Positions 856-19,507 of a stretch of DNA of 37,718 nt are shown piece by piece. Position 1 is the stretch's first letter. Every line of letters begins with the position of its first letter. A program made the position numbers and the translations under genes. Origin of the DNA: Enterobacterales bacterium (GTDB taxonomy: Bacteria > Pseudomonadota > Gammaproteobacteria > Enterobacterales > Enterobacteriaceae); assembly GCA_015654745.1 (NCBI GenBank), contig JAATGH010000229.1, forward strand, positions 1 to 37,718, written 5' to 3'. The notes under the pieces were generated by a model, which worked only from the letters and a program-made list of their open reading frames with translations, had not been told where the DNA came from and searched no databases.

Positions 856-856
856 A

Positions 857-1108: not shown

Positions 1109-1110
1109 CT

Positions 1111-1982: not shown

Positions 1983-1996
1983 TTTGGAGTAAACCC

Positions 1997-2215
1997 ATGC
2001 TTGTTAAACCCAACGCTGGGCGCGCCGTGCGCGACCCGGTTAAAGGCACTCTATTGCCTGAATCTGGGGCGGAGGTTCCGGATAACAGTTTTTGGCGCCG
2101 TCGGCTGCGTGACGAAGATGTGTCTTTGATCACTGCAACGCCCCTCGCCGCAACGCCGGCCGCCAGTAATACCGCGCCGTCTGCAACTACCACAGCGACC
2201 GAGGACACTAAATAA
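1997..2215 (+). CDS. DUF2635 family protein (Mu gp38-like)
   Basis: 72 residues with the characteristic DUF2635 pattern: MLVKP at the start, VRDP, then LLPESGAEVPDNSFW and RRRLRDEDV. The C-terminal third is a low-complexity Ala/Thr tail (residues about 46-70). A ribosome-binding site TTGGAGT precedes the ATG by 7 bases. The TAA overlaps the ATG of the sheath gene (TAATG at 2213-2217). In Mu-like phages this small protein is encoded immediately before the tail sheath; its function is not established, and a role in sheath folding or assembly is only inferred from invariant gene order. Confidence 0.8.
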   Translation: MLVKPNAGRAVRDPVKGTLLPESGAEVPDNSFWRRRLRDEDVSLITATPLAATPAASNTAPSATTTATEDTK

Positions 2216-3699: not shown

Positions 3700-3708
3700 G
3701 GAACAATC

Positions 3709-4077
3709 ATGGCAGATACAACTAATCGCCTGGCGGGTATCGCTTACATTGCCTGCGATGGCATCACGGTAATGGTTGGCGGTAAATTTGGCTATAGCGT
3801 GTCCAAAGTAAAACGCGAAACTATGAGCGGCGGGAGTGGCGTACAAGGCTATAAAGAAACGTTCATCCCTGGCTTTATCACCGCCGAAATACGAGATAGT
3901 GGTGCGTTGACCGTTGCAGACTTCAACGATCAAACCAATGTCACGGTCACCATGGAATTAGCCAACGGCAAAACCATTATCGGTAGCGGGTTGTGGGCGG
4001 TAGATTCGCAGGAGGTTGACTCAATGGAAGCAACCTTCACAGTTAAATGGGAAGGCCCATCGGTAACGGAGAATTAA
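3709..4077 (+). CDS. Tail tube protein (Mu gpM-like)
   Basis: 122 residues, typical for a Mu-type tube subunit. It carries N-terminal NRLAGIAYIACDGITVMVGG, then the polar hinge KRETMSGGSGVQGYKE, a strand FIPGFITAEIRDSG, and a C-terminal strand FTVKWEGPS. These match the two-sheet fold of the inner tube of contractile tails. It directly follows the sheath, and the tail assembly chaperone starts 2 bases after its stop. ATG is at 3709 behind AAGGA. High confidence. Confidence 0.88.
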   Translation: MADTTNRLAGIAYIACDGITVMVGGKFGYSVSKVKRETMSGGSGVQGYKETFIPGFITAEIRDSGALTVADFNDQTNVTVTMELANGKTIIGSGLWAVDSQEVDSMEATFTVKWEGPSVTEN

Positions 4078-4079
4078 TT

Positions 4080-4379
4080 ATGGCAGAACTTGAAAGAAAT
4101 AAAACGATCACGCTGGTTAAACCCGTTTCGGATAAGTCTGGTAATCAGACCTGGGAGTCCATTGATCTGCATGAGCCGGCATTGATTGAGGTCCAGCAAT
4201 TTTATAATGAACAAGCAAAAACGGGTTCGTTAGGGGGTATGGGCCTTCTTATTACTTTATTGTCCGGCATCCCGCAAGAGGTAGTAAAAAAACTGGCCTT
4301 TACTGACTACAAAGCATGCGAGGAATATTTGCTGGGTTTTTTGAACTACTCCCCAACGGTGGAAAATGGCAAGAGTTAA
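4080..4379 (+). CDS. Tail assembly chaperone, short form (Mu gp41/lambda gpG-like)
   Basis: 99 residues, starting at ATG 4080 (MAELERNK). An in-frame ATG at 4047 lies inside the tube gene and is rejected. The protein is a small helical domain (HEPALIEVQQFYNEQ, GGMGLLITLLSGIP, YKACEEYLLGFL), like the tail assembly chaperones encoded between tube and tape measure in long-tailed phages. These chaperones coat the tape measure during tail assembly and are absent from the virion. The gene overlaps a -1 frame that is open from 4307 to 4501 and continues as the long-form extension; see the slippery site at 4334-4343. Confidence 0.8.
   Translation: MAELERNKTITLVKPVSDKSGNQTWESIDLHEPALIEVQQFYNEQAKTGSLGGMGLLITLLSGIPQEVVKKLAFTDYKACEEYLLGFLNYSPTVENGKS
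4334..4343 (+). other. Probable -1 programmed frameshift site
   Basis: Bases GGGTTTTTTG hold two overlapping heptamers of the X XXY YYZ type in the chaperone frame: G GGT TTT (4334-4340) and T TTT TTG (4337-4343). The -1 frame has a TGA at 4304-4306 and is then open to 4501, so a shift must occur between 4307 and the 0-frame stop at 4377; this is the best candidate there. It would produce the G-T-like long chaperone, as in lambda. Sequence shown directly; shifting itself is inferred. Confidence 0.7.
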
Positions 4380-4501
4380 TCGCCGATGTAACTCTATATT
4401 ACCGGTGGGGTCCGGCTGATGCCGAGGCTATGACATGGAGTAGGCTTTGCTGGTGGGTAGATCAGGCGCACCGGATTAATTCTGAGAGGAAAAATAAATA
4501 A
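4343..4501 (+). CDS. Tail assembly chaperone, frameshift extension (gpT-like part)
   Basis: This -1 frame segment continues the chaperone after the slip and has no ribosome-binding site of its own. It encodes ELLPNGGKWQELIADVTLYY-type sequence followed by RWGPADAEAMTWSRLCWWVDQAHRIN, the conserved T-like motif of Mu and lambda family chaperones with its Trp-rich core. The TAA at 4499-4501 overlaps the tape measure ATG (TAATG), so translation of the long form would couple directly to tape measure synthesis, which is the protein it binds. Read with the short form it gives a product of about 139 residues. An ATG at 4316 in this frame is not needed. Confidence 0.75.
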   Translation, partial: ELLPNGGKWQELIADVTLYYRWGPADAEAMTWSRLCWWVDQAHRINSERKNK

Positions 4502-6330
4502 TGGCCAATTCGTTTGATTTTGAGCTGAAAGCTGATGATCAGGTTAGCGCATCTATTCAGCGCATTGACGAGGCGGTCAAAAACCTGCTTCCCGCCCTGA
4601 ATAAGACCCAGGACGGAATGAAGTTAGGTGGGCAAGAGTCAGTAGACGGCTTGAATAAATTAGGACTTGGATTTCAAAATATTTCAAAAAATGCACGGGA
4701 TAGTGTCCAGTTTATTGGCGATATAGTACCACCGTTAAAAATGGTTGCAGGATTGACTGTAGGCCTAGGTGGCGTCGCTAAAGTTATCAGCATGGTAAAA
4801 GATAGCGTAGTGCAATTCGCCGGCAATGGCTATCGTATAGCAACAACAGCAAAAAACATCGGAATGACCACTTATGCCTTTCAGCAACTCACCGGGGCCA
4901 TGATTGAGAATGGCGCCGCGCGAGATAAGGCAGAAGGCTCGGTAACAGATCTTTTTAGCCGGGCTAATAATGCCATTCAGGGTTTTAACCCGCAATTCCA
5001 GGGGCTGCTTAAATCTCAAGGAATCGACCTTAACTACAACGATCAGGGCGTTGTGGATATGAATCGCCTCTTGGAAGATATGCACAGCAAGCTGATTTTA
5101 CTACCACCGGCGTTACAAGCTGTTTTTGGTGATAAAGCTGGGTTATCACCTGAAATGCTGAATTATTTACGTCAGTCTGGGGATGAAATCCAACGCTTAA
5201 AGGACCAAGCGCAGCGTGATGGGTTGATATTCAGCGCCCAGGATATTCAAAATTCCTTGGCTTTCCGCGATAATATCAATCAGATCGGCGCCGCATGGGA
5301 CGGCATGCTGATGAAATCCCAGGCATGGCTCGGGCAATCAGAGTTAGTTAAAAACTCTCTCGATGAAGTCAAGCAGTTGATGGTTAACGGCCCCGACAAT
5401 GTAGCCGTAAGTTCTATTTTGGGCTGGAATAAAGGGGGGAAACAGGCTGACGTGTTGCGCCAGGCCCAAGGTGATGAAAAATTCAAAAACACACTCTCTT
5501 TCAAGGAAAAATCAGATCTTTATTTGGGATATGCCTCTGATGATTTGAGAGATAAAATGCAGGGTTATTACGGCCCTATCTGGCAGGCGCAGCAGTTGAA
5601 AAACGATGTGCAAAAGCTTTATGTCCAGCCTCCAGCGTACAATTCACAAAGCAACGGAAACGGTAATAGCCAGGGAGGAAACCTCTTCCCGCAGTTAGAG
5701 ACAAAATATCAGTTGCCGTCTGGGCTATTGAACCGGGTCTACCAGGCAGAGTCCGGCGGTGGAAAGCATCTTTACTCTAATGCTGGAGCTGAGGGGCCAT
5801 TTCAATTTATGCCGGATACAGGCCAGGATTACGGACTAAATAGCCGCGCCGATAGAATGGACTTTGGAAAATCTTCCGAAGCTGCGGCTAAATATCTTTC
5901 TGATTTATTGAGAATGTTTGATGGTGACGTAGCCAAGGCCGTTGCCGCCTATAATTGGGGCCCAACGAGGGTTAAGGCGCACGGACTTTATCATGCACCC
6001 AAGGAAACGAGGGACTACCTTGATCGAGTTATGCCGGGCTTACCGGGTTACTCGGCTGTTAGCCCTCAACCTTCACCAGGGGACGGCAATCCGGTTGTTA
6101 CGCCACCGTATAGAATTAATTCTGAACAACCACTAACTAACATCAATGCCCCACAGCCAGCGGCTACAACTACTTCATCTTCTGCACAGGACATAGCTAA
6201 CGCAATCGCTGCTGCCATGAAAGACAGCAAGACTCAAATTGAGCTAACAATCATCAACAGCCAGACTGGTGAGAAGCGGATCATCAATACAGAAGGGGCA
6301 AAAATCTCCGCTTCAATGTCATATCAGTAG
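4501..6330 (+). CDS. Tail tape measure protein with lytic transglycosylase domain
   Basis: 609 residues. The N-terminus (FDFELKADDQVSASIQRIDE) is the usual start of Mu-like tape measure proteins. A hydrophobic stretch at about 82-108 (VAGLTVGLGGVAKVISMV) is followed by long helical sequence. Residues about 398-510 form a soluble lytic transglycosylase domain: LPSGLLNRVYQAESGGG with catalytic Glu417, then AEGPFQFMPDTGQDYG and AVAAYNWGP. The rod sets tail length, and the enzyme domain would open peptidoglycan during DNA entry. The tail of the protein is Ser/Gln/Pro-rich. It is short compared with many tape measures, implying a short tail. High confidence. Confidence 0.9.
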   Translation: MANSFDFELKADDQVSASIQRIDEAVKNLLPALNKTQDGMKLGGQESVDGLNKLGLGFQNISKNARDSVQFIGDIVPPLKMVAGLTVGLGGVAKVISMVKDSVVQFAGNGYRIATTAKNIGMTTYAFQQLTGAMIENGAARDKAEGSVTDLFSRANNAIQGFNPQFQGLLKSQGIDLNYNDQGVVDMNRLLEDMHSKLILLPPALQAVFGDKAGLSPEMLNYLRQSGDEIQRLKDQAQRDGLIFSAQDIQNSLAFRDNINQIGAAWDGMLMKSQAWLGQSELVKNSLDEVKQLMVNGPDNVAVSSILGWNKGGKQADVLRQAQGDEKFKNTLSFKEKSDLYLGYASDDLRDKMQGYYGPIWQAQQLKNDVQKLYVQPPAYNSQSNGNGNSQGGNLFPQLETKYQLPSGLLNRVYQAESGGGKHLYSNAGAEGPFQFMPDTGQDYGLNSRADRMDFGKSSEAAAKYLSDLLRMFDGDVAKAVAAYNWGPTRVKAHGLYHAPKETRDYLDRVMPGLPGYSAVSPQPSPGDGNPVVTPPYRINSEQPLTNINAPQPAATTTSSSAQDIANAIAAAMKDSKTQIELTIINSQTGEKRIINTEGAKISASMSYQ

Positions 6331-6335
6331 CAATA

Positions 6336-6350
6336 CAATAATAATTATTG
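6336..6350. repeat. Short inverted repeat before the moron gene
   Basis: CAATAAT-A-ATTATTG, perfect 7-base arms with a 1-base spacer, placed 36 bases before the 6386 ATG in an AT-rich leader. It could be an operator for the inserted gene's own promoter, or simply a by-product of AT-rich sequence. Confidence 0.4.
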
Positions 6351-6385
6351 TTAATATGTTCCTTTACTAAAAAGGAATTGAAATT

Positions 6386-6772
6386 ATGACTTATTTAATA
6401 ATTTTATTTGTTTTGTTTTTAGTATGTCTTTATCAATCATTTAGTAAGACCCCATCTATTAAAAGAAAGATAATGAGATTGGTAGCTGCTATTTCTTCTA
6501 TAATTTTGATATCGGTATTTTATCTTTTGCATGGATATTTTACTGATATAGAAAAGTGTTCTCAAACCGCTAATGAATTTTATGGTAATAAAGAGACATT
6601 ATGTTATGGTGTTATGAATATAAATTCATCTGTTTCTGCTAAGAAAAATATTACAATTCAATCATTTAAAATTATAGATAGCAATAGAGCATTTATAAGT
6701 TCTACCGTGGGTGACATTTATGAATTAGATTATATAAATGTAGAAGGAATGACGGTTAGTAAAATGAAATAA
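6386..6772 (+). CDS. AT-rich two-helix membrane protein, moron-type insert
   Basis: 128 residues with an AGGAA ribosome-binding sequence 8 bases upstream. Two hydrophobic helices are visible (residues about 3-20, LIILFVLFLVCLYQSF, and 31-50, LVAAISSIILISVFYLLHGY). A polar domain of about 75 residues follows, with two cysteines (Cys58 and Cys72 region) that could pair if it is periplasmic. Base composition is strikingly AT-rich and codon choice is unlike the flanking tail genes. It sits between tape measure and gpN genes, where Mu-like phages normally have nothing, and has its own terminator. These are the marks of a moron, a phage-carried gene expressed in the lysogen. Superinfection exclusion or envelope modification is possible but unproven; no family is recognised. 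Confidence 0.7.
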   Translation: MTYLIILFVLFLVCLYQSFSKTPSIKRKIMRLVAAISSIILISVFYLLHGYFTDIEKCSQTANEFYGNKETLCYGVMNINSSVSAKKNITIQSFKIIDSNRAFISSTVGDIYELDYINVEGMTVSKMK

Positions 6773-6789
6773 AATAAATATATTTACTA

Positions 6790-6811
6790 ACCCGCTTCGG
6801 CGGGTTTTTTT
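6790..6811 (+). terminator. Intrinsic terminator after the moron gene
   Basis: CCCGC (6791-6795), loop TTCG, GCGGG (6800-6804), then seven T residues. It is a textbook rho-independent terminator located inside a phage late operon, directly between the AT-rich gene and the next tail gene. Late transcripts would need antitermination or readthrough to pass it. Confidence 0.9.
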
Positions 6812-6823
6812 ATGGAGAAAGCT

Positions 6824-8227
6824 ATGTCTATTTTAAGCAATGAATTATCATCCCTATTGGGTGGTTCGGGAGATAGTTGGAAATGGTCAGAGCATCTTCA
6901 TGCCGCTTCGTTCCGTGGCGTGCCATTTGCAGTCAAAGCAGGCCAAGGTGAGTTTGGCCGCCGGCAGGCAGTGCATGAGTACCCTTACCGCGATACGGCC
7001 TGGGTAGAGGACATTGGACGCTCAACGCGGAAATTGACGCTACGTGGCTTCATCATTCAAAGCAGCCTGCTTTATACCGCCGCCGACGTGATGAAACAGC
7101 GGGATTCGCTGGTGGCTGCATGTGAAATGAATGGCCCCGGCACGCTAGTTCACCCCACACTGGGTGAGCTGACGGTGAGTATTCCTGAGGGTGGATTAAG
7201 AATCAATGAAGGAATGGCGGGTCGTGTATTTGAATTTTCGTTAACGGTCATTGAGTCGGGAATTAAGGTTTTTGCGATCACCGATGCAAAAAAAGCGGTT
7301 TCGACAGTAAAAACCTCATGGTTGTCCGTTGCATCAAAAGCAGCCGCTTCCTTTATCGCAGAAATACGGGGTGATTTGCGGACGGTCACGCAGGCTATAA
7401 AAACAATAAAAGCAACGATAAAATTCTGGACAGGAATGGTAACGGGTATTGCTGATGAAGCTACAAACTTGAGCAATATGTTTAAGTCTACATTCGGTAG
7501 TACTCATTATGGGCGTTATAATACCGGGACTATCGGTGGTAATTCATCTGGGGCAACAAGTACGACAACAACCCAAGCCGATACAACAGGCTATACGGCG
7601 CTTGCGGCTCAAAAGGTTGCCACGGCAATAGAAAATCGAGCATCAATTACTGCCGCTATTTTAGTTCTGTCAAACACCACCACAATTGAAGAATATCCAA
7701 CCAATGCACAGGCCGTGATTCAGGCCATGCTAGATGGCATACCCAGTATTTATGATTTGATTAAAGCACTAGAAAATTTATCCTCCATTTCTGATACGAC
7801 CTATTACGCAAAATCCAGTGACGTTTTAATCCAAAATATTACCAACGTTTATCTTAACGTCATGTGCGCCAGCGCAATGGCCTATGCCGCATCAGAGTAC
7901 AGCCCGCAAAGCTACGATGATGCAATAGCGATATTGGAACGAGTGATCACCGCAGTGGACGCAGCCGGGGTGTCGGCGGCCGATATTGGCTTTGATGACG
8001 CTTATTCAGAAATGCAAAACCTGCGCTCAACTATTCTCACGTCGCTGATGGATAAGGGGGCGGATTTAGCGGCGCTGACGACCGTTAATTTTTCTAAACC
8101 ACTCCCTGCATTAACACTGGCAAATCGACTATATCAGGATGCAGGTAGAACGGAGTCTTTGATAAAGATGGGCGATCCGATACATCCTGCTTTTATGCCC
8201 ATAAGATTTAAGGCCCTAAGCTCATGA
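6824..8227 (+). CDS. DNA circularization / tail protein (Mu gpN-like)
   Basis: 467 residues from ATG 6824 (MSILSNEL). This start is chosen over ATG 6812 because a GGAG sequence lies 6 bases before it, inside the longer version. The N-terminal 90 residues match the DNA circularization N-domain of Mu-like phages: HAASFRGVPFAVKAGQGEFG, RRQAVHEYPYRDTAWVEDIG and RKLTLRGFII. The rest is helical and Ala/Thr-rich, with a hydrophobic-basic segment. In Mu-like phages this protein belongs to the baseplate/tail-tip region despite its historical name. Its TGA overlaps the next ATG (8224-8227). Confidence 0.82.
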   Translation: MSILSNELSSLLGGSGDSWKWSEHLHAASFRGVPFAVKAGQGEFGRRQAVHEYPYRDTAWVEDIGRSTRKLTLRGFIIQSSLLYTAADVMKQRDSLVAACEMNGPGTLVHPTLGELTVSIPEGGLRINEGMAGRVFEFSLTVIESGIKVFAITDAKKAVSTVKTSWLSVASKAAASFIAEIRGDLRTVTQAIKTIKATIKFWTGMVTGIADEATNLSNMFKSTFGSTHYGRYNTGTIGGNSSGATSTTTTQADTTGYTALAAQKVATAIENRASITAAILVLSNTTTIEEYPTNAQAVIQAMLDGIPSIYDLIKALENLSSISDTTYYAKSSDVLIQNITNVYLNVMCASAMAYAASEYSPQSYDDAIAILERVITAVDAAGVSAADIGFDDAYSEMQNLRSTILTSLMDKGADLAALTTVNFSKPLPALTLANRLYQDAGRTESLIKMGDPIHPAFMPIRFKALSS

Positions 8228-9279
8228 CTGATGACTTAACGCTATCTGTTGGTGGGAAAATAATATCTGGTTGGGATCAAGTGCGGGTCACGCGCGGTAT
8301 AGAACGGCTTCCCAGTAGCTTTGATTTATCTCTGATGGATTATTATCCGGGAAGCAATGAACAGCAATTAGTTAAACCAGGTGATCCCTGTGTGGTTAAA
8401 TTGGGGGCTGACCTGGCATTAACTGGCTATGTTGATCGCTGGGCGCCGATGATTAGCCGATCACGGCATGAAGTGAGGGCTATAGGACGCAGCAAATGCC
8501 AAGACTTGGTTGATTGCTCAGCAGAGTGGCCAAATAACGTTATCAGCAACGCCACCGCATTACAGATTGCCCAAAGACTTGCAAGCCCCTATGGGATCAC
8601 GGTATCCACTGACGTTACGGGCATGGCTACCGTACCGCAATTTACACTAAATTGGGGTGAAAGCTCTCAAGAAATCATTGATCGCATCAGCCGTTGGGCG
8701 GCGTTCCTTTATTATGATTTACCCGACGGTAATTTATACCTAACCCGCGTAGGCACCAAAAAAGCCGCAAGTGGCGTAGAGCAGGGTGTCAATATCCAAG
8801 ACGCCGCTTATGAGTCGTCCATTGATGAGCGTTTTTCTAATTATACTGGCGTTTCGTTATCCATCACGCCAATGACCGGAAATTACAGCGCAGTAACCAA
8901 AGCGACCGCAACAGATCCAGAAGCATTAACGATGCGCTATCGAAACCACATCGTAATAGTTGAAAGCACGATGGTGGCTCACGACAAAGCACAGGACTGC
9001 ATAAACTGGGAAATGAATCGACGTTACGGGCGGTCCAAACACCTACAGGTCACTGTAGATAGCTGGAGGGATAGCGCGGGAACATTATGGACACCCAATA
9101 CACTGATCCCCATAAATATCCCTGTTTTTGGCCTGAAAAATTTGCTCTGGCTATTATCGGAAGTGACGTACATCAAAGATGAGCGAGGAACGGTCGCACA
9201 GATGGTCATCATGCCTCCCGAGGCTTTCACTGTCCAACCATACCAATTTTATCAGGTGGTCCCGGAGTTGACGCGATGA
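8224..9279 (+). CDS. Baseplate hub protein (Mu gpP/gp44-like)
   Basis: 351 residues. Typical features of the Mu gpP hub are visible: the short N-terminus DDLTLSVGGKIISGWDQVRV followed by RGIERLPSSFDLSL, a barrel with VVKLGADLALTGYVDR, and RAIGRSKCQDLVDCSAEW. The middle contains RISRWAAFLYYDLPDGNLYL, and the C-terminus carries conserved PEAF. The protein forms the central hub that ties spike, tube and wedges together. It overlaps both neighbours by 4 bases, indicating coupled translation with gpN-like and spike genes. High confidence from sequence and gene order. Confidence 0.87.
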   Translation: MTDDLTLSVGGKIISGWDQVRVTRGIERLPSSFDLSLMDYYPGSNEQQLVKPGDPCVVKLGADLALTGYVDRWAPMISRSRHEVRAIGRSKCQDLVDCSAEWPNNVISNATALQIAQRLASPYGITVSTDVTGMATVPQFTLNWGESSQEIIDRISRWAAFLYYDLPDGNLYLTRVGTKKAASGVEQGVNIQDAAYESSIDERFSNYTGVSLSITPMTGNYSAVTKATATDPEALTMRYRNHIVIVESTMVAHDKAQDCINWEMNRRYGRSKHLQVTVDSWRDSAGTLWTPNTLIPINIPVFGLKNLLWLLSEVTYIKDERGTVAQMVIMPPEAFTVQPYQFYQVVPELTR

Positions 9280-9872
9280 GTGATGTTGATGGGAGTATTT
9301 CCCGGCTTTATCGCCAGGTTAGAATGATGTTGGGCCTTGGTAAGGTAACCGGGTCATCCGACGCCGGCGTGGCACAGAACGTCCAGTATCAGACACAAAT
9401 GGAAGTGCGTAGCAATACCCCTCGAATGGCAGAATTCGGTTTTTCATCTGGGTTGCCTGTTGGCACAGATGTTGTGCTGGCATTCCTAGGTGGTGATCGC
9501 TCAAACGCCGTCATTATCGGTTCCAATCATCAAGGGTTTCGTCATACCGGGTTGGCTGATGGTGAGACGGTTATTTATGACCAATGGGGACAATACGTTA
9601 AGCTGACGGAAGCCGGGATTGTCGTAGAGGCCCAGGGCCAGCCGGTTACCGTGAATAATGCCACAGTCGTGACGATAAACGCGGCCACCGAAATTCAGAT
9701 GAATACCCCGGTGCTCAAAGTCTCTGGTGACATTATCGATAACTCGGCCAGCAATACTACGACGCTCAAAACTCTACGTGAAACCTATAACACGCATAAC
9801 CACCAGGTAGAACACGTACATAGTGGAGATTCAACGCTGACCAGTAAGGCGCCCGGGGAGTTAGTTGAATGA
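9276..9872 (+). CDS. Baseplate spike protein (Mu gp45/gpV-like)
   Basis: 198 residues. An N-terminal OB-fold region (residues about 1-100) includes ISRLYRQVRMMLGLGKVT, FGFSSGLPVGTDVVLAFLGG and RSNAVIIGSN. A beta-helical needle follows, with short repeats (VTVNNATVVTINAATEIQMN). Near the C-terminus is a histidine cluster, THNHQVEHVHSGD (about residues 170-184), as in the metal-binding tip of Mu and P2 spikes. The trimer would form the sharp tip that pierces the outer membrane. It overlaps both neighbours by 4 bases. High confidence. Confidence 0.88.
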   Translation: MSDVDGSISRLYRQVRMMLGLGKVTGSSDAGVAQNVQYQTQMEVRSNTPRMAEFGFSSGLPVGTDVVLAFLGGDRSNAVIIGSNHQGFRHTGLADGETVIYDQWGQYVKLTEAGIVVEAQGQPVTVNNATVVTINAATEIQMNTPVLKVSGDIIDNSASNTTTLKTLRETYNTHNHQVEHVHSGDSTLTSKAPGELVE

Positions 9873-10303
9873 CCGATATCAAAACAGTATGGGATGCCGA
9901 CAAAATAACCGGCGACTGGTCGGTAGTGGCTGGTGGACTGGAGACGGGCGACGATTTAGAAACAGCAATACTGCTCAGCCTGTTCACCGATCGCCTGGCC
10001 AGAAGTGACGATTCAATCGATGGATCAGATCGGCGGGGCTGGTGGGGTGATACTGACGCGGATTACCCAATCGGCTCCCGGTTTTGGCTCCTTAAACGAC
10101 AAAAACTCACCACGCAAGTGGCCACGAAAGCCGAGGATTACGCGAAAGAGGCGTTGCAGTGGCTAATTGATGACAAAGTCGTGAGTAGCATCACCGCAAC
10201 CGCCCAGATTGTTTACCCCACCAGGCTTTATCTCACCATCGTTTATCAGCAGCCAAGCAAGGATCCGGTATCGGCTAAATTCGGCTGGGTCTGGGAGAAA
10301 TAG
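9869..10303 (+). CDS. Baseplate protein gp46-like (phage GP46 family)
   Basis: 144 residues, with DGSDRRGWWGDTDADYPIGS followed by RFWLLKRQKLT, the signature of Mu gp46-like proteins. ATG at 9869 overlaps the spike stop. In Mu-like and P2-like baseplates this protein corresponds to the gpW/gp25-type component linking hub and wedge. It is followed 2 bases later by the gp47-like wedge gene. High confidence from motif and order. Confidence 0.85.
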   Translation: MTDIKTVWDADKITGDWSVVAGGLETGDDLETAILLSLFTDRLARSDDSIDGSDRRGWWGDTDADYPIGSRFWLLKRQKLTTQVATKAEDYAKEALQWLIDDKVVSSITATAQIVYPTRLYLTIVYQQPSKDPVSAKFGWVWEK

Positions 10304-10305
10304 CT

Positions 10306-11448
10306 ATGCCATATAATCGCCCGACGCTGACCGAGCTGCGCCAGCGCAATCAGGCATTTATTCAAACTGAATTGGAAAGCATAGGGACGTTACTGCGGTT
10401 TTCAAACCTGAAAATTATGGGTGATGCGGACGCCGGCATGGCCTACCTCCATTATGGCTATTTGGATTGGATATCAAAGCAAGCAGTACCGTTTACCGCG
10501 ACGGATGATTATCTTGCTGCCTGGGGTGCGCTCAAAGACAAATATCAGAAAGCCGCCACCGCCGCCACCTGTGCTCAATTGGCTATTACTGGCACCGTGG
10601 GCACTCCAGTACCGTCTGGATCAGTTTTAAATCGCAGTGATGGCTATCAATACACGATTGACACATCAGTAACCATTGGCTCTGATGGGACGGCTGTGGG
10701 GGCTATTACGGCGGTCCTGCTGGATGCATCAACTGATACCACAGGTGGCGGGGCATCTGGCAATGCCGCCGCCGGCACTATCCTGACCTTTGATCAAGCA
10801 ATATCCGGTGTAGATAGCCAAGCGACAGCAGTTGTTGCTATTGCTGGTGGTGCTGATATTGAAGATGAAGAAGTTTTCCGGGCCAGGGTGATTGCCGCAT
10901 ACAGTAATACACCACAGGGTGGTAATGATTCGGACTATGAGGGGTGGGCGTTGTCAGTCGCCGGCGTTACCCGCGCCTGGACGGCGCCACGGCTCATGGG
11001 TATTGGCACCGTAGGCGTTTACATCATGTGTGACGGATCCGATACCACAAACAATGGTTTTCCGGTTGGCACCGATGGCGTGGCCACTGCTGAATCTTAC
11101 GCTGGTGCGAAAGCCACGGGTAATCAACTGGCGGTCGCTGATTATATTTACCCGCTACAGCCCGTCACGGCGCTAGTTTATATTTGCTCACCAATCCGGC
11201 ATGACGTCGATTTTGTAATAAATGGAATTTCAACAGCCTCTGCTGATGTAGTGGCCTCAATCAAGTCGGCCATCGATGAGGTTTTTTTCGAAGATGGCTC
11301 CCCGGGCGGGAAAATCCTGCTATCCGCACTTAATTTGGCGATCGGGGCGATATCTGGAACGGAGGGCTTTTTGATCACTACGCCGGCCGCCAATATCGTG
11401 ATGGGGACGGGGGAAATGCCGGTGCGCGGCGGGGTGTCATTCACATGA
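10306..11448 (+). CDS. Baseplate wedge protein, J-like (Mu gp47)
   Basis: 380 residues, normal length. The N-terminus has YNRPTLTELRQRNQAFIQTE and YGYLDWISKQAVPFTAT. The core contains the Baseplate_J motifs: GTVGTPVPSGSVLNRSDGYQY, EDEEVFRARVIAAYSNTPQG and GNDSDYEGWALSVAGVTRAW. The protein forms the baseplate wedges that open before sheath contraction. The TGA overlaps the next ATG (11445-11448). High confidence. Confidence 0.92.
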   Translation: MPYNRPTLTELRQRNQAFIQTELESIGTLLRFSNLKIMGDADAGMAYLHYGYLDWISKQAVPFTATDDYLAAWGALKDKYQKAATAATCAQLAITGTVGTPVPSGSVLNRSDGYQYTIDTSVTIGSDGTAVGAITAVLLDASTDTTGGGASGNAAAGTILTFDQAISGVDSQATAVVAIAGGADIEDEEVFRARVIAAYSNTPQGGNDSDYEGWALSVAGVTRAWTAPRLMGIGTVGVYIMCDGSDTTNNGFPVGTDGVATAESYAGAKATGNQLAVADYIYPLQPVTALVYICSPIRHDVDFVINGISTASADVVASIKSAIDEVFFEDGSPGGKILLSALNLAIGAISGTEGFLITTPAANIVMGTGEMPVRGGVSFT

Positions 11449-12116
11449 GCCAATTTTCCGTTTCTGATTATGCGTCGGCTTTTCAGTCGTTATTGCCCAC
11501 TGGGCTTGTTTGGCCAAGGGATAGCGATGCGATACAGTCTGCGGTTTCTCGGGCGATAGCGAAATCATTTCAACAAATTGATAGTGACGCCATGTCTCTG
11601 CTGACAAACCTTTTTCCCAAAACTGCGGTAACAATGCTTCCTGAGTGGGAAAGTACCCTGGGTTTGCCGGATGATTGCTCGATCGGTGAGGTTGATACGA
11701 TATCGAAAAGGCAAAACGCGGTTGTATCAAAACTAATTAGCTCGGGTGGCCAGTCAGTAGCCTATTTTATCAGCGTAGCTAAGGCACTCGGGTATAACAT
11801 TACGATCACCGAGTTTCGCCAGGCGCGCGCCGGCATGTCTGCTTGCGGTGATGCCATAAATGGCGAGGACTGGCCGCTAACTTGGCGGGTGAATGCGGAA
11901 TCAATAACGCTGGTTTATGCGCGGTGCGGGCTAAGTTATTGTGGGGACCCGCTACGGTCATGGGGTAACAAGCAATTAGAGTGCAGAATAAATTCATTAA
12001 CACCATCTCACACTATTGTGAAATTTGGTTATACCTATTTTCCGTTTGTCGATGAGAACGTTTATATAATTTCTGACTCGATGGCAACCATATTAGATTC
12101 CGCATTGAATAGCTAA
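11445..12116 (+). CDS. Baseplate/tail-tip protein gp48-like (YmfQ/DUF2313 family)
   Basis: 223 residues. The start YASAFQSLLPTGLVWPRD and the middle section LLTNLFPKTAVTMLPEWEST, LGLPDDC match the DUF2313/YmfQ family (Mu gp48). A later ISVAKALGYNITITEF region leads to a C-terminal segment with four cysteines (SACGDAING, YARCGLSYCGDP, LECRINS). The protein attaches fibres to the wedge in Mu-like baseplates. It overlaps gp47 by 4 bases. A 44-base gap with no overlap follows, so the coupled part of the tail operon ends here. Confidence 0.85.
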   Translation: MSQFSVSDYASAFQSLLPTGLVWPRDSDAIQSAVSRAIAKSFQQIDSDAMSLLTNLFPKTAVTMLPEWESTLGLPDDCSIGEVDTISKRQNAVVSKLISSGGQSVAYFISVAKALGYNITITEFRQARAGMSACGDAINGEDWPLTWRVNAESITLVYARCGLSYCGDPLRSWGNKQLECRINSLTPSHTIVKFGYTYFPFVDENVYIISDSMATILDSALNS

Positions 12117-12160
12117 ATATCCTTCTTAAATTACATCGCTTTTACCGGCGAGGGATCCTC

Positions 12161-13201
12161 ATGCAAAAAATTAGCAGCATAACTGATACAGCGGACACTG
12201 ATGGCGAATTTACTGATGGCAATGTCGCCGGCGGCGTTTCACCGACAATACTCCCAGCCGCATGGTTTAACACAATTCAGCGCGAATTGGTCAATGCAGT
12301 TTTAGCTGGTGGATTATCACTTGATCCGACCAATGACGCACAAGTCATCGCGGCGTTAAAATCTCTATTTCTCCAAAAAACCAACAACCTCTCAGAGATT
12401 GCCGCTGCTGGCGCGGATGCCGTTGCTCAGACTCTCGCAAACCTTAGTTTAGGCAGAGGGCTGACGGGCACCATTGGGCAGTCAAGGAATGCGGTGATGA
12501 CTTGCTCATCAGTCTCGGCATCACAAACCTTTACCGCTGATGAGTTAATCGTAGAAACTGAGCTGGGTGGCATTCAGTACCGAATAAATTCCATCAATCT
12601 TGCCGTCAACCTGGCAGCAACTGGTGCGGGTGGGATGGATACCGGGACTGCGCCAGCATCCGGTTTTGTTGCGCTGTATGTGATCTACAATCCGACAACT
12701 CAAACTGCAGCGCTGTTGGCAAAAAATGCCACATCAGTGAAAGTAAATGAGGTGTATTCCGGCATCAACATGCCATCAGGATATACAGCATCAGCGCTCG
12801 TTGCTGTGTGGCCGACTAATGCATCTGGACAACTTATATATGGTCAATTAATTAACCGAAAGGCAATATTTCAGAACACGTCTGCTGTGACTTCCACAGC
12901 AGTTGTGACAAATGGCAGTGTATCGTTGGTTAATATTGTTCCGTTGAATGCAAAAACCATAGATGGGTTCATCGCAGCGGCAATAACAACCGGTTCCGGA
13001 ACAATTTATGGTATCGCGTCCAGTGATTCCGTATCAGGATTGAGTAAACAAGTCTGGGGTTATTCGACGAATTCCAGCTCAGTCCAGGGATATTTCGGTG
13101 GGTTGCCACTGCTGACTCCGCAAAAGCTTTATTACAGCTTTGGTTACAGCGGCGGCACGGCGTGGTCATGGCAAGTCGGCATCAACGGATACGAATTTTA
13201 A
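12161..13201 (+). CDS. Tail fibre protein
   Basis: 346 residues, behind GAGGGAT 7 bases before ATG. The N-terminal 100 residues are the standard baseplate-binding part of Mu/P2-like fibres: DTDGEFTDGNVAGGVSPTIL, PAAWFNTIQRELVNAVLAGG, LDPTNDAQVIAALKSLFLQK and the collagen-like NLSEIA repeat. The middle (residues about 110-230) is beta-rich. The C-terminal part (about 240-346) has many Gly/Ser/Tyr/Trp residues (YSFGYSGGTAWSWQVGINGY), as in receptor-binding tips. No fibre assembly chaperone of the Mu gpU or lambda Tfa type follows; instead a 61-residue gene and a tailspike do. Target receptor cannot be read. Confidence 0.85.
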   Translation: MQKISSITDTADTDGEFTDGNVAGGVSPTILPAAWFNTIQRELVNAVLAGGLSLDPTNDAQVIAALKSLFLQKTNNLSEIAAAGADAVAQTLANLSLGRGLTGTIGQSRNAVMTCSSVSASQTFTADELIVETELGGIQYRINSINLAVNLAATGAGGMDTGTAPASGFVALYVIYNPTTQTAALLAKNATSVKVNEVYSGINMPSGYTASALVAVWPTNASGQLIYGQLINRKAIFQNTSAVTSTAVVTNGSVSLVNIVPLNAKTIDGFIAAAITTGSGTIYGIASSDSVSGLSKQVWGYSTNSSSVQGYFGGLPLLTPQKLYYSFGYSGGTAWSWQVGINGYEF

Positions 13202-13212
13202 GGGAACACTCT

Positions 13213-13398
13213 ATGTACGCAGTATATTCTGACAATAGTAAAGCCGTGATAATTGCAATTTTTGATTCCCAGCCCGATCTTGCGGAGTGGCCTAATCAGG
13301 CTGGGATATCCGCATCTGATGCAGTATACGCGGCGTTTTATGCGGCACAGCCAATTGGGGTTCAGCGGGGCATGATAACCCCTACTGCTATCAGCTAA
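13213..13398 (+). CDS. Small unidentified protein between fibre and tailspike
   Basis: 61 residues from ATG 13213 (MYAVYSDNSKAV). An upstream in-frame start at 13162 would overlap the fibre gene and is rejected; AAGGGAAC precedes the chosen ATG by about 6 bases. The protein is compact, mostly uncharged, with a strand-like start (AVIIAIFDSQPD) and a helix (ASDAVYAAFYAAQP). I do not recognise it. Small proteins in this slot can be fibre chaperones or fibre subunits, but nothing in the sequence supports one over the other. Confidence 0.55.
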   Translation: MYAVYSDNSKAVIIAIFDSQPDLAEWPNQAGISASDAVYAAFYAAQPIGVQRGMITPTAIS

Positions 13399-13416
13399 TT
13401 AATATGGGTGTTGAAA

Positions 13417-14898
13417 ATGGCTACTCGATATGATACTGGCAACCAGGTTCCCTCAAATACGATGATGGATTTAAGCGATAACGTCCAAGTTTTAGATTCG
13501 TTCATAAATAACCCCGAAGGTACGGTCCCATTGCGCACTGGCGAAGTCGTGCCAGTATTACAAGCTCAATTAGCCGAGCGCATTGACGGCTTAACCTCGA
13601 TCGCACAAGAGGCCATTGATACCTCTACTGCTAACGCGGCCGTGGTAGCATCTGACAAGTCCACCGTGCAATCTCTGACCGACACGACCACGCTCGTCGC
13701 CGCAGCCGTAGGTGTATTCACCATCACTACCGAAGACCCTGACGGCACCATCGCTGGACTGGCTGCAACTACTGACGGCCAGTCGTTCTATGTCGCGCAG
13801 GGTACAGGAGCGAGTACAGCGGCGATATTGTATAAAAACGTGTCCGGGGCGGCTGTAGCGGTAGCGAAGCTGTCGGGGCAGGCAGCGGTGGATGCGGTGG
13901 CGTCGAGCGTATCATCGGGTCTACGGGCCACTAATAATAATGTCACGGCAACAAATCTGACAAATTCAGTGCAGATTGGTAATCAATCAAAGCACATTAA
14001 ACATGTGTTCAACACGCTACAACTAAACGGGATCACCGCGGCGGTTGCGGCGCAATTTTGCCCAGAGAGATCTGCTTTAATCATTAATAGCCTAGTAAAT
14101 AGTAATGCTGTCGGCGTTCCAGGCGGTATTACTGTAAAAGTTGCGGGAACAACTGTTTACCAGCCGGCTATACTTCCTGGTGAAAGCGTATCGGCTGGGG
14201 TTAAAACCTCTCCGTATGCTTATAAGGATATTACTGGTGCTGTGCCAGCTCAAATTTCTTATGATACAAGTATTGTGCGCGTTCGTTACGCGTTTACTAT
14301 GATAAATCAAACTTTAGCGATTGGTGGTTATAACGTTCAGGATAAAAACAATGTTTTTTCTCCTACCACGCAAACCGCAGCATCAACTGTTACGGTGCGT
14401 TCTGTGTCGTCTCATTCAGCTGGCGGCATTCAATTGGCAATTCCTAATGCGCTTATTACTGGCGCTGGTTTTACGCTGGATGATAGCGGTGTTAAATCCT
14501 ACATCGCAACATTCAGCGCGCTCGTGTTTTGGTGCCTTACCAGTTCTGTGCAATCCACAGAAAATTTTGTTGATTATGCTGTTGTAGATGCGGGTGCATT
14601 TTCATTAGATGTAACAACCGGCGTTACTTTTAACGCATCACTTTATTCATCGCGCATTCCAACAGCAGAAAATGGACTTGATGATTTAAGTAAAAAATCA
14701 TCATTCGACGGTTATTCAAATAAAGTATTCTCCGGTGATCTAGCTGAGGCCTCCGGGTTGATCGTCTCAGACAGTGCGGCACTATTTTTAACTGAATTAT
14801 CGACAAATGGCACGCTGGCTAATGTGAACGGCATTACCGTGTTGAAGGACGGAACCGAGATTTCTCGACGGTATTTTCCCGGCGCCTCTACCCTGTAG
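13417..14898 (+). CDS. Tailspike / receptor-binding protein, part before an in-frame amber codon
   Basis: 493 residues from ATG 13417 (MATRYDTGN); the upstream GTG 13408 is less likely. N-terminal MATRYDTGNQVPSNTMMDLS and VQVLDSFINNPEG are the usual virion-anchoring start of enterobacterial prophage tail proteins. It is followed by a coiled linker (residues about 50-110) and a spike-like head with FYVAQGTGASTAAILYKN. A later beta domain holds GITVKVAGTTVYQPAILPGE and, further on, a similar unit GITVLKDGTEISRRYFPGAS. The TAG at 14896-14898 is followed by open sequence in the same frame to 17562, and the second unit appears to continue across it. So this is probably the front part of a 1381-residue spike, cut by a nonsense codon or read through at low level. 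Confidence 0.75.
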   Translation: MATRYDTGNQVPSNTMMDLSDNVQVLDSFINNPEGTVPLRTGEVVPVLQAQLAERIDGLTSIAQEAIDTSTANAAVVASDKSTVQSLTDTTTLVAAAVGVFTITTEDPDGTIAGLAATTDGQSFYVAQGTGASTAAILYKNVSGAAVAVAKLSGQAAVDAVASSVSSGLRATNNNVTATNLTNSVQIGNQSKHIKHVFNTLQLNGITAAVAAQFCPERSALIINSLVNSNAVGVPGGITVKVAGTTVYQPAILPGESVSAGVKTSPYAYKDITGAVPAQISYDTSIVRVRYAFTMINQTLAIGGYNVQDKNNVFSPTTQTAASTVTVRSVSSHSAGGIQLAIPNALITGAGFTLDDSGVKSYIATFSALVFWCLTSSVQSTENFVDYAVVDAGAFSLDVTTGVTFNASLYSSRIPTAENGLDDLSKKSSFDGYSNKVFSGDLAEASGLIVSDSAALFLTELSTNGTLANVNGITVLKDGTEISRRYFPGASTL

Positions 14899-14949
14899 GG
14901 TAACACCTTATCGTCTCTATATAAGCCGTTCCGGTTTAGGGATTTAGCG

Positions 14950-17562
14950 GTGGAGACCCTTGCGTCCGCAGCTGCCGGGATGCTGAGGATTCGATATTAC
15001 CTACCAGCAGGGTTCGGCGGCCTTGCATACGATTATACCGTGCCCGTTTGCGTTGATATTTGCGGGCTGTTTTATCCAACGATAGCCAACAATGCCGCGA
15101 CAACTACCCAGCGTGCAGTCAGTGGGCACGCGGATAACAACAAAGTGCAATTTATGTTAACCACTGCGGAACTGACCGCGCTAGGGTATGACGCTACAGA
15201 TAAATATTCTGTTGACCGCTATTTGAAAACCTTGGCGGCAGATTGTCAATTTGTTGCATACACTGGCACCAATCAGTCGGTTACATTAGATAGCCATCTG
15301 CTAGCTATAGCCATGCCAGCGGGTGCATATAGTTTTTCATATTTAAGCAGCGGCGGATTGAAAGGTTCCATCCGTCGGCAACCGGTCTCGGCACCAGTTG
15401 ATACCGGGGCTTATATTCGCAGTGTAGCCGATATTGTTAATAGCACATCTCAGGCGCATAGCAATTATCCGTTTGAGATCAGATCATCGTTCAATCCAGG
15501 GCAGGTAGCATCATCGGATTGCCTGGTTTTAACCGACAGCGATGGTAACGAGCACCCCTGTCAGTGGGCTGATGAATTCCACTGCAATCCTCGTCAACAG
15601 TCCAATATGGGATTTCATTATGAAAATTCACTGCGTGACGGGTCGGTGTTTTTTATGGACTCGCTGGCGGCGGGTGCAAAAAAATATTATGAGCTGAGGG
15701 CTTATAATCGGCCTATGCGCAGTTATGTGTCGCCGGCGCTGACAAGAAATGGTCGTGATTTTTCCGTTTCGGTAGATGGATGGGTTTACAATTTTACCGG
15801 TTCGAACCAATATCAGTTACGATCGATTATTGACCCCACCGGCACTACACACAACATTACAGCAATACTGTATATTTCGGGGTTGGTTTCCGGCACATCC
15901 AGTGAAGTGGCTTTTGACAACAAACCAACATTGCGCATGGTTAATACCGGGCCTGTGTTTACAGAGGTCGAAACGGTGGTGTTTAACAGCGCATTCGCCG
16001 GCATTGCGGCTGGCGCGTTAAAGGCACGGATCCGCACGCGGATGTTTAAAAACGGCAAATGCAAAATTTACACCATGGTAACTGCCGTGACACAAATCGC
16101 GACTGGGCTACTGTACGGTGTTTCAATGCGGTGCAACTTGAGTGATGCCGCATACGCATACGACAACAATGTTTTGACTGCAGCTTGGGCTGACTCGACT
16201 AGCAATCAGAACTGGTCATCTATCCTCATCAGGGCAAACGGAGATGTGCACCGCGATGGCACCACCTACGGCCCGCTACGTCCGGTGCGAGCAACGTTTA
16301 TCAATCCCACAACAACGTCCGTACGCGCTTATGCGGGATGGGTGTACACCAGCGCAACCGATTATTCGTTTTTAAATTGGCCGGTGACGATGGGATGGAC
16401 GTGGACCAATGAATTTTGGATTGACGGAAATAATTCATTAACGGACAAAACAGCAATCGCCAGTCAGGTGCATAACCGTCCTATTGGCTATGCAGGTAAC
16501 AGCCCGTTTGTGGCCGTATCGCGCCAGGATGCACTGGATACAATGGCGCGTCATGTGCGTGGCTCTATGGCCTGGTGGAATAGTGCTGACGCTAGTGCAT
16601 ACGGCGGAGGTACTGCTACGACCCTGCTTTATCATTCGTATACTGCCGACATCATGAACCTATTGGCCTACGGCAGAGGTGATTTTGCGACAATATACAG
16701 CAATTTTAAAACCTATATAGCGACTCGCTGGGGTACGCTGGCAACAATAGGTGCGGCATATACCTCTGGCAGTATGGTGCTCCAATTTGCCTCTCGTCTG
16801 TCTATTCCAGTATTGCAATGGCTGTACTACCTAGCTGTAAAAAATAACGACGCGGCGAAGATCGCTGAATTGCAGGCGGGTATAAAAAGCCTGGCGGATG
16901 CCTTGGTCACAAAATTCAACGCATTGGGTGGTGTTGGCATTCCATTGAATGGTTCGGCTAGCGATACAGGAAACAGCAACAGTAATGCTGCTGCCATGCG
17001 AGCGCTGGCATTAGCCATTTATGCTGGACAAGACAGTGCTGGAGCATATTTAGCAACGCTCACCGCGCTTGAGTCAATCATAACAAGTCGTTCAAGTTAT
17101 ATGCGTATTGAGGGGATCGTTACTGATACCTCTTCTGATGTATTGGCTGGAGCAATGTATCTGCATTATCAGGCTTACGCCGTAAACAATTACCTGTTTG
17201 CAGAAAAGATGGCTGGGCGCACCCCAGCGTTTGATTTGGTAAATTACATAATGCTAGCAACTAGCGGCATGGGGGGATTTAAGGAGATCGATTATTGTAT
17301 ATCTGAAAGCCGGCGCGGCAGCGCGAACACGATCACGTTCGCCGCATTCTCGTTGCTGCTAGCAGGAACGACATCAACTGTTAATGCAGCAAACACGCTA
17401 TTAAGTAAACTTAAATCTGAATATGGCCCAAGGCCGGGATTTCCGTTAAGATTTTTCGGGTTCGACGGAACGACAGCAAATGGAACGACCATATCTGATA
17501 TAAGTTTTGTAGCAACTACACTCTCTGATATTTGGCTTTATTATTATTTTTCAGACAATTAA
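14950..17562 (+). CDS. Large tailspike C-terminal part, same frame after the amber codon
   Basis: 870 residues if started at GTG 14950; the frame is open from 14899, directly after the TAG. The GTG has only a weak AGGG about 10 bases upstream, so independent translation is doubtful. The first residues (GNTLSSLYKPFRFRDL, then MLRIRYYLPAG) read as the continuation of the beta domain interrupted upstream. Further on are beta-sandwich-like segments and, from about residue 530 to 760, a long helical region with repeated Trp/Tyr/His motifs (HVRGSMAWWNSADASAYGGG, YHSYTADIMNLLAYGRGDF). An alpha/alpha-barrel lyase or hydrolase acting on surface polysaccharide is a reasonable guess but not proven. The end YYYFSDN is intact. 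It is the last structural gene of the prophage seen here. Confidence 0.65.
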   Translation: METLASAAAGMLRIRYYLPAGFGGLAYDYTVPVCVDICGLFYPTIANNAATTTQRAVSGHADNNKVQFMLTTAELTALGYDATDKYSVDRYLKTLAADCQFVAYTGTNQSVTLDSHLLAIAMPAGAYSFSYLSSGGLKGSIRRQPVSAPVDTGAYIRSVADIVNSTSQAHSNYPFEIRSSFNPGQVASSDCLVLTDSDGNEHPCQWADEFHCNPRQQSNMGFHYENSLRDGSVFFMDSLAAGAKKYYELRAYNRPMRSYVSPALTRNGRDFSVSVDGWVYNFTGSNQYQLRSIIDPTGTTHNITAILYISGLVSGTSSEVAFDNKPTLRMVNTGPVFTEVETVVFNSAFAGIAAGALKARIRTRMFKNGKCKIYTMVTAVTQIATGLLYGVSMRCNLSDAAYAYDNNVLTAAWADSTSNQNWSSILIRANGDVHRDGTTYGPLRPVRATFINPTTTSVRAYAGWVYTSATDYSFLNWPVTMGWTWTNEFWIDGNNSLTDKTAIASQVHNRPIGYAGNSPFVAVSRQDALDTMARHVRGSMAWWNSADASAYGGGTATTLLYHSYTADIMNLLAYGRGDFATIYSNFKTYIATRWGTLATIGAAYTSGSMVLQFASRLSIPVLQWLYYLAVKNNDAAKIAELQAGIKSLADALVTKFNALGGVGIPLNGSASDTGNSNSNAAAMRALALAIYAGQDSAGAYLATLTALESIITSRSSYMRIEGIVTDTSSDVLAGAMYLHYQAYAVNNYLFAEKMAGRTPAFDLVNYIMLATSGMGGFKEIDYCISESRRGSANTITFAAFSLLLAGTTSTVNAANTLLSKLKSEYGPRPGFPLRFFGFDGTTANGTTISDISFVATTLSDIWLYYYFSDN

Positions 17563-17587: not shown

Positions 17588-17757
17588 ATCACTACAAGCA
17601 CAGCGAGACGGGGCTAACTTATCGGCTCCGTTCTCGCGCCTCAACCATCCTCGCTCATTCCTGCGTAACGCCTCGCAAAAACTAAATTCTCCCCTCACTC
17701 AATAGCCTACCGCGATCATCATTCTGCCTGCTTCACAACCCAACACGCTCGCGACTA

Positions 17758-17777
17758 TACTGTACAAAATCACAGTA
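17758..17777 (+). promoter_or_regulatory. LexA (SOS) box
   Basis: TACTGT-N8-ACAGTA, a full match to the outer parts of the E. coli LexA consensus (CTGT-N8-ACAG at 17760-17775), ending 14 bases before the UmuD'-like ATG. The spacer ACAAAATC is AT-rich as usual. It implies DNA-damage induction of the gene that follows. Confidence 0.85.
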
Positions 17778-17791
17778 ATTAGGCATTCATC

Positions 17792-18181
17792 ATGGCATTC
17801 CCATCCCCGGCAGCGGACTACGTAGAGAACTCAATCAGCCTGGACGACCTTTGCATCGTGCGGCCGGCGTCAACGTTTCTGATGCGCTCCGACCGAACGC
17901 TGCTACATGCGGGCATTTTCAAGGATGCATTGCTCGTCGTTGACGCCAGTATTAAGCCGGTTCACGGCAGCGTTGTGATTGCCGAGGTTGACGGGTGCCG
18001 CGTTGTGCGCCGGCTACATCTGCATCCAGCCGTGGGACTGGAGCGCCTGGACACTGGATATATTCAACTGGTCGATCTGGTGGATTTTGAACAGGGGGAG
18101 GGGGTCTACATTTTCGGCGTGGTGACATATTGCGTAAACGATATGCGCGGGGCGGAGTTCGATGATGGGCCGGGGGTTTGA
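17792..18181 (+). CDS. UmuD'/HumD-like protein of the S24 fold, catalytic residues replaced
   Basis: 129 residues. MAFPSPAADYVENSISLDDL aligns with E. coli UmuD from its Gly25-Phe26 on (GFPSPAADYVE), i.e. it begins where processed UmuD' begins. An in-frame TAG at 17780 excludes a longer N-terminus. The catalytic Ser60 position (GDSMI in UmuD) reads DRTLL here, with Thr36, and the catalytic Lys97 position reads Arg73 (VVRRL). So it should be unable to self-cleave. Phage P1 HumD is a known naturally short UmuD' homologue under LexA control. As a UmuD' mimic it could partner a host UmuC for mutagenic repair; no umuC is in the window. The C-terminal 15 residues (MRGAEFDDGPGV) are acidic and extra. 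A LexA box lies just upstream. Decayed copies of the same gene lie at 19391-19507 and 21737-21797. Confidence 0.8.
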   Translation: MAFPSPAADYVENSISLDDLCIVRPASTFLMRSDRTLLHAGIFKDALLVVDASIKPVHGSVVIAEVDGCRVVRRLHLHPAVGLERLDTGYIQLVDLVDFEQGEGVYIFGVVTYCVNDMRGAEFDDGPGV

Positions 18182-18474: not shown

Positions 18475-18519
18475 CTTCTAAGCCGTAGGTCACTGGTTCG
18501 AATCCAGTAGGGCGTACCA
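18475..18519 (+). repeat. 3' half of tRNA-Arg(UCU): phage attachment site
   Basis: Sequence CTTCTAA (anticodon loop with TCT), then GCCGT, variable region, T arm with GGTTCGAATCC and acceptor strand AGGGCGT plus A and CCA. It follows the 3' half of enterobacterial tRNA-Arg(UCU) exactly. Bases upstream of 18475 do not form the 5' half of a tRNA (no D arm, no anticodon-stem partner), so this is a fragment, not a tRNA gene. Tyrosine integrases commonly recombine within the anticodon loop and leave such a 3' piece at the end far from the integrase. The prophage therefore most likely ends here, with the intact tRNA and integrase to the left of the window. Confidence 0.8.
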
Positions 18520-18929
18520 TTCCGACGGTGGCGTGCCAGACGTGATTAACCCACTATCAACATCGCCGGCACGACGCTAGTTAGGCACTCCATGTTTTGA
18601 TTCACCCGGTTTCCTTCTTTAGCTATTTAGAGCCCGCGCGGCAAGATATAGCTAACCGTACGGAAAACAGAATATGCCTAATGAGGCGAGGTAATGACGC
18701 GACCGGCGGCGGAAAGACCGCTGGCGTAGCCGACTGACAAAAATGGGGTTATTGCGATTTGAAAAGCCTTAATATAAATAATCGCGTACCAAAAGCAATT
18801 AGTGCAACCAATCCTGAAATGATATGAAATACAATAATAAAAAAACAATTACTTCTAGCGTTATTATGTTTTTCTTAATATGAAAGTAATTCCTGAAAGG
18901 AACATTGAAAAAATAATTCATCAGTGGCT
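18520..18929. other. Non-coding stretch right of the att fragment
   Basis: No credible gene. The left part is of mixed composition; bases from about 18770 become very AT-rich with many stops on both strands. It leads into the first 107-bp repeat copy. I see no tRNA, terminator or conserved coding fragment in it. Confidence 0.5.
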
Positions 18930-19390: not shown

Positions 19391-19507
19391 CTTACCGTTG
19401 ATGAAAGCATTAAACCAGTTCACGGCAGCAGCGTTGTTGCCAAAGTTGACGGGTGCCGAGTTGTGCGGAATGACTACATCCGCATCCCAGGGGGAGTTGT
19501 CATATGA
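19391..19507 (+). pseudogene. Internal fragment of a second UmuD'-like gene
   Basis: Translated in frame it reads LTVDESIKPVHGSSVVAKVD then GCRVVRNDYIRIP, matching residues about 49-80 of the intact copy at 17792-18181 (VDASIKPVHGSVVIAEVDGC). It has no start, begins mid-gene and reaches TGA at 19505. The matching 3' end lies at 21737-21797, on the other side of the toxin-immunity module. Confidence 0.75.

Follow-up and report, generated by a model that had tools for sequence, protein, structure and literature searches.

A HumD-family UmuD' homologue behind a perfect LexA box at a prophage end, with a catalytic site lost as in many of its relatives

We identify, in the 37,718-nt stretch of DNA analysed here (the window), a gene at the end of a prophage that lies behind a perfect LexA box and encodes what is, to judge from its sequence, an ordinary addition to the HumD family, of which phages P1 and N15 provide known members. 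The protein starts where UmuD is processed to UmuD' and has lost the catalytic Ser and Lys of UmuD, a loss that is common among HumD-type proteins. We consider it quite probable that the gene is a moron of the HumD family, whose product is predicted to serve as a pre-activated UmuD' that joins host UmuC when LexA falls. The observations of a first-pass annotation, which had described the protein as a LexA-controlled UmuD' mimic with a dead protease site, are confirmed, and its interpretation is partly supported. The features on which the analysis draws are collected in Table 1.

Table 1. Features in and around the humD gene of the window, in order of position
Feature	Positions	Strand	Basis
Prophage late genes with contractile tail, ahead of humD	136..17562	+	8 ORFs scanned against PHROGs
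TATACT, candidate -10 element that overlaps the LexA box	17756..17761	+	Read from the sequence; inference only
LexA (SOS) box TACTGT-N8-ACAGTA	17758..17777	+	0 mismatches, 12 fixed bases
In-frame TAG stop that bars an N-terminal arm	17780..17782	+	Translation upstream of the ATG
HumD-family UmuD' homologue, 129 aa	17792..18181	+	NF051876, PHROG 811, AlphaFold2 model and fold matches
T36 codon, aligned with catalytic Ser60 of UmuD	17897..17899	+	Alignment with E. coli UmuD'
R73 codon, aligned with catalytic Lys97 of UmuD	18008..18010	+	Alignment with E. coli UmuD'
C-terminal tail AEFDDGPGV, HumD-type, not seen in UmuD	18152..18178	+	Class comparison
Attachment-site copy, 3' part of tRNA-Arg(TCT)	18475..18520	+	46 bp identical to the C166 tRNA

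Gene product and family

The product of the humD reading frame opens with the residues MAFPSPAADYVE (quoted at greater length, MAFPSPAADYVENSISLDDLCIVRP...), and its N-terminus coincides with the UmuD' processing point, just as the first-pass annotation had claimed from the translation. The in-frame TAG stands nine bases, or three codons, ahead of the ATG at 17792, and the protein can therefore have no form that carries an N-terminal arm; both a longer UmuD with arm and an alternative start are ruled out by this stop, which bears out the earlier exclusion of a longer form and leaves the protein without the arm and cleavage site of a UmuD autoprotease. The frame is a real gene and no chance ORF. 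Compared with a relative of 76% identity, it gives an NG86 dN of 0.19 and a dS of 2.28, the latter near saturation, and a dN well below dS fits purifying selection.

Against the HumD equivalog model NCBIfam NF051876, the protein scores 134.4 bits, above the cut-off of 120, and against the UmuD model NF007621 it scores 87.8 bits, below the cut-off of 110 and identical to the score of P1 HumD with the same model. It also matches Pfam PF00717 (peptidase S24 superfamily; 27.1 bits, cut-off 23.3) and the UmuD-like protein family PHROG 811 (7.9e-38). All four matches of a phmmer sequence search of the PDB are UmuD' or UmuD chains. The AlphaFold2 monomer model (mean pLDDT 83.2) has the UmuD' fold, its first five Foldseek matches being UmuD' or UmuD chains (1umu, 8gmt and 1ay9), with LexA also among the matches. 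In the virus and plasmid collections, matches were found in 65 of 50,697 phage records, all below 60% identity and including N15, phiKO2, HK639, D6 and P1, and in at least 5,000 plasmid records, both counts taking UmuD-type and HumD-type proteins together.

Catalytic positions and two classes of relatives

Thr36 and Arg73 fall at the columns of UmuD Ser60 and Lys97 both in the alignments with E. coli UmuD' and in the phmmer alignments to UmuD' chains. The two substitutions listed by the first-pass annotation are thus upheld, and the catalytic pair that defines a UmuD autoprotease is absent. In an alignment of 185 sequences, the window protein has one residue deleted in the loop ahead of the Ser position.

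We split 196 distinct full-length relatives by the length of the catalytic loop into 118 short-loop (HumD-type) and 78 full-loop (UmuD-type) proteins, so that loop length defines the classes in this set and is no result there; 13 partial or interrupted matches and the five loci holding the window itself had been left out before counting. The contig loci in the set are the best 80 of at least 537 and the best 80 of at least 507 relatives, found with search patterns that included the HumD start and tail.

Ser and Lys are both present at the catalytic positions in 34 of the 118 HumD-type proteins versus 77 of the 78 UmuD-type proteins. The Ser60 column of the HumD type holds Thr in 44 proteins, Ser in 36, Gly and Gln in 12 each and Tyr in five, with Ala (four), Met (two) and Asn, His and Arg (one each) as rarer letters. 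A lost catalytic site is, hence, common among HumD-type proteins, and the idea that it marks the window protein out is not supported, since one or both residues are missing in 84 of the 118 relatives; a unique dead mimic is rejected on these class counts. The emphasis has to be corrected: the loss is widespread in the HumD type, is expected if cleavage is unneeded, and is not peculiar to the prophage in the window. As to the likeness to P1 HumD drawn by the first-pass annotation, the family model supports it, but the dead site does not, because P1 HumD keeps Ser and Lys in its shorter loop, which makes "dead like P1 HumD" inexact.

The classes also differ in their surroundings and ends. A umuC gene lies behind none of the 118 HumD-type genes versus 75 of the 78 UmuD-type genes (at least 300 bases of downstream sequence were available for 93 and 77 of them, respectively), an arm-like P-L-F motif lies upstream of 0 of 118 versus 74 of 78, and the strict EFDDxP-type tail is found in 107 of 118 versus 0 of 78. 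The search used the tail pattern, which inflates the share of tail-bearing proteins in the full set; in a recount on loci found without that pattern, umuC is present at none of the 31 HumD-type loci and 19 of the 20 UmuD-type loci, the strict tail at 25 and none, and Ser and Lys at four and 20, respectively. In the 185-sequence alignment, where the classes were assigned by an S-L-D motif (with a few named variants allowed) together with the absence of umuC, the loop has 12 residues in 109 and 10 residues in one of the 110 HumD-type rows, which include a copy of the window gene (L057), and 13 residues in 72 of the 73 UmuD-type rows, the remaining row being a misplaced HumD-type sequence (L216).

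The split between the HumD and UmuD types is weakly supported in a FastTree phylogeny, where the sole clade that matches a class has a support of 0.077 and the outliers L042 and L048 lie at the base. L042 (5999-6355) and L025 (1501-1860) represent a divergent solo UmuD'-like type (EMMEQGVDLNALVSASAATYYMRSG...) with a DD-x-P tail.

At the eight named positions of the UmuD' arm, F-P-S-P-A-x-D-Y-x-E, the commonest letter accounts for 86-97% of the HumD-type proteins (n = 118) and 97-100% of the UmuD-type proteins (n = 78). The arm is thus conserved in the HumD type though nothing is cleaved there, which fits a partner surface that has been kept. Ten further positions distinguish the classes, namely 16 S, 18 D, 46 A, 60 S, 116 N and 117 D in the core and 122 E, 124 D, 125 D and 127 P in the tail (numbering of the window protein): each holds one letter in at least 94% of the HumD-type proteins, and there the commonest UmuD-type letter differs or UmuD is mostly gapped.

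The HumD-type tail has the consensus xxEFDDxPV, and the window protein carries a tail of this EFDDxP type, which is poorly ordered in the AlphaFold2 monomer model (pLDDT 53 in the last block). Within the partial texts covered by literature searches on HumD with UmuD and on phage UmuD-like proteins, nothing was found on the tail, which may still be described elsewhere. It is conceivable, though doubtful, that HumD-type proteins are a phage-borne class of their own that manages Pol V: through its conserved acidic tail, such a protein would dock on UmuC, on RecA, on the beta clamp or on a phage protein, and host Pol V would be diverted to the phage or taken from the host.

LexA box and SOS control

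The perfect TACTGT-N8-ACAGTA box reported by the first-pass annotation is indeed in place ahead of the gene, and it is the single perfect copy in the window; the chance of such a copy is about 0.005 per window (2 x 37718 / 4^12). When up to two mismatches are allowed, the window holds two boxes (0.73 expected), a count that 15 of 100 shuffles also attain; information therefore comes only from the perfection of the match and from its position. From the end of the box to the ATG there are 14 bases, and a distance of 14-19 bases is found in 45 of the 77 boxed HumD-type rows of the 185-sequence alignment set, one of these rows being a copy of the window gene.

Among the HumD-type relatives, 83 of 118 have, within 80 bases upstream of the start, a LexA box with no more than two mismatches, compared with 0 of 118 in plain base shuffles of the stretches (2 of 110 in an earlier set of rows). 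A LexA site is annotated for lxr and humD in the P1 record (NC_005856) and ahead of the humD-type gene in the phiKO2 record, and humD is termed LexA-regulated in the accessible text of PMC9603915. SOS control of the window gene, as the first-pass annotation had proposed, is thus a well-supported prediction, in line with the box, the P1 annotation and the cited text.

No recognisable LexA box precedes 35 of the 118 HumD-type genes, and SOS control is accordingly not universal in the HumD family; in 20 of these 35, the Ser60 column is occupied by Ser. One HumD subgroup, whose loop reads SRSH (L155, L061, L020 and related loci), has Ser and Lys aligned and lacks the LexA box. Our guess is that this subgroup may use another promoter.

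Prophage setting and mobility

The window is contig C238 of a draft genome of 5.05 Mb in 495 contigs. Six of the eight ORFs scanned ahead of humD match head, sheath, tape measure, baseplate hub, baseplate wedge and tail-fibre PHROGs, and for the ORFs at 13408 and 14950 most matches are to families whose function is unknown. The second of these (14950-17562) encodes an 870-aa protein behind the tail-fibre genes, with PHROG 20877 (unknown function) as its only PHROG and no Pfam match.

An intact tRNA-Arg(TCT) gene lies on contig C166 of the same genome, and the copy of 46 bp of its 3' part behind humD leads us to read humD as the last prophage gene before the attachment site, that is, at the right end; the position at the prophage end given by the first-pass annotation is supported by this copy. 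On C166, the tRNA-Arg gene adjoins an ORF read as folD from its translation and a truncated integrase, surroundings that resemble the argU-type prophage site of enterobacteria.

Two further observations concern the DNA beyond the attachment-site copy. A run of 72 bases (19396-19467) is 81% identical to humD positions 17938-18009 and perhaps derives from an earlier element with humD that had occupied the site before. At 19540-21455 lies a 547-aa ORF that matches no Pfam or NCBIfam model and adjoins a DUF6966 protein; we guess that the two are perhaps a bacteriocin-immunity-like pair.

The closest relative among the matches listed (76% identity) is found in a genome of the same genus (G063, contig C6; L248, 10815-11204). 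Like the window gene, it has Thr and Arg at the catalytic columns and a LexA box, and it lies behind ORFs read from their translations as lambda-J-like and fibre tail genes. However, across the 16 kb compared, DNA similarity between the two loci is confined to humD with its box and to some 70 bases that follow the upstream gene. These differing surroundings, together with a dN below dS, suggest that humD moves between phages and is kept.

Host partners and possible roles

The host genome has umuC over the family cut-off on contig C317, with umuD just before it; contig C207 ends in umuD and the start of a umuC, and contig C269 ends in a part of umuC, also over the cut-off. The host lexA is on contig C162. 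A search of the window contig with the umuC model gave no match, as befits a solitary gene of the HumD family, and a role that needs a phage umuC alongside is thereby ruled out. UmuD- or HumD-type matches are present in all six genomes of the genus, the source genome included. The same genome holds a second HumD-type gene (G000, contig C492, 1168-1545; L041), 45% identical, which scores 119.7 where the HumD cut-off is 120. It has a LexA-like box of its own, and its catalytic columns hold Gly and Cys.

Given that the host has lexA and umuDC, the likely role of the window protein is that of a pre-activated UmuD' joining host UmuC. Upon cleavage of LexA, humD would be expressed at once in its short form; a short protein of the HumD type would dimerise like UmuD' and, if the assumed pairing holds, would bind host UmuC, yielding Pol V activity without RecA-assisted self-cleavage of UmuD. 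Such activity would promote mutagenesis and the tolerance of damage when SOS or the prophage is induced, with the window protein as a putative replacement of UmuD' in SOS mutagenesis. The Ser/Lys pair and the loop would have drifted because cleavage is not needed. If this is true, many temperate phages can raise host error-prone repair once LexA falls, skipping the delay of UmuD self-cleavage.

The protein might instead be a dominant-negative partner that pairs with host UmuD, UmuD' or UmuC, lowers Pol V activity and limits host or phage mutagenesis, which we regard as unlikely. Such a role would suit a protein without the catalytic pair and the N-terminal arm, and, in the accessible text of PMC5342242, the length of the arm alters partner binding by UmuD, an uncleavable arm-shortened form, UmuD 8 S60A, made cells more sensitive to UV at raised dose, and arm-truncated UmuD heterodimerised with UmuD S60A; these arm-length results leave a blocking role as a rival. 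However, in the same text the shorter, UmuD'-like UmuD 18 promoted survival, and the P1 record notes that its humD "functionally complements E. coli UmuD'". The conservation of the UmuD' arm also fits a positive role, though a blocker might need the arm too.

Less probable still is a decayed passenger, a functionless leftover at the prophage edge: its location at the prophage end and the decayed 72-base humD fragment nearby are what one would expect of it, but the ORF is full-length, the box is intact, and dN is well below dS in the comparison with the 76% relative, which also has Thr and Arg. That the protein is an SOS repressor and not a polymerase subunit, along the path by which UmuD became the repressor UmuDAb in Acinetobacter (accessible text of PMC11332147), is barely credible, given that a start at the UmuD' point leaves no N-terminal extension for DNA binding.

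Comparison with known systems

The pre-activated UmuD' that we favour has its counterparts in E. coli and in several phages. With E. coli UmuD and UmuD', the window protein shares the fold (1umu, 8gmt, 1ay9) and the sequence at the UmuD' start; unlike UmuD, it has neither the cleavable arm nor the Ser/Lys pair, its loop is one residue shorter, it bears the extra tail, and umuC is not beside its gene.

As in the window, the humD-type genes of N15 (gp26), phiKO2 (gp23), HK639, Hafnia phage yong1 and Aeromonas phage pAEv1818 lie behind tail or tail-fibre genes, and their products are 45-53% identical to the window protein. The gene precedes the integrase in HK639 and pAEv1818, and in phiKO2 a dinI-like gene lies between the tail genes and the humD-type gene; a literature search on phiKO2 with UmuD and DinI found nothing. 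At the Ser60 column, N15, phiKO2 and HK639 have Thr like the window protein, whereas the residue is Tyr in yong1 and Gln in pAEv1818; at the Lys97 column, the Arg of the window protein is shared by yong1 and pAEv1818, whereas N15 and phiKO2 have Lys and HK639 has Met.

P1 HumD is said, in the title of a 1999 paper, to facilitate SOS mutagenesis. At 42.5% identity to the window protein, P1 HumD (NC_005856, P1_gp103; L004) resembles it in that it starts with MGFPSPAADYVE, has a LexA site upstream and no umuC neighbour, and combines a catalytic loop one residue shorter than that of UmuD with the tail EFDDCPVI. It differs in aligning Ser and Lys where the window protein has Thr and Arg, and in the place of its gene between lxr and phd-doc. 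In the accessible text of PMC7092418, HumD is called an exception, being already in the activated shorter form.
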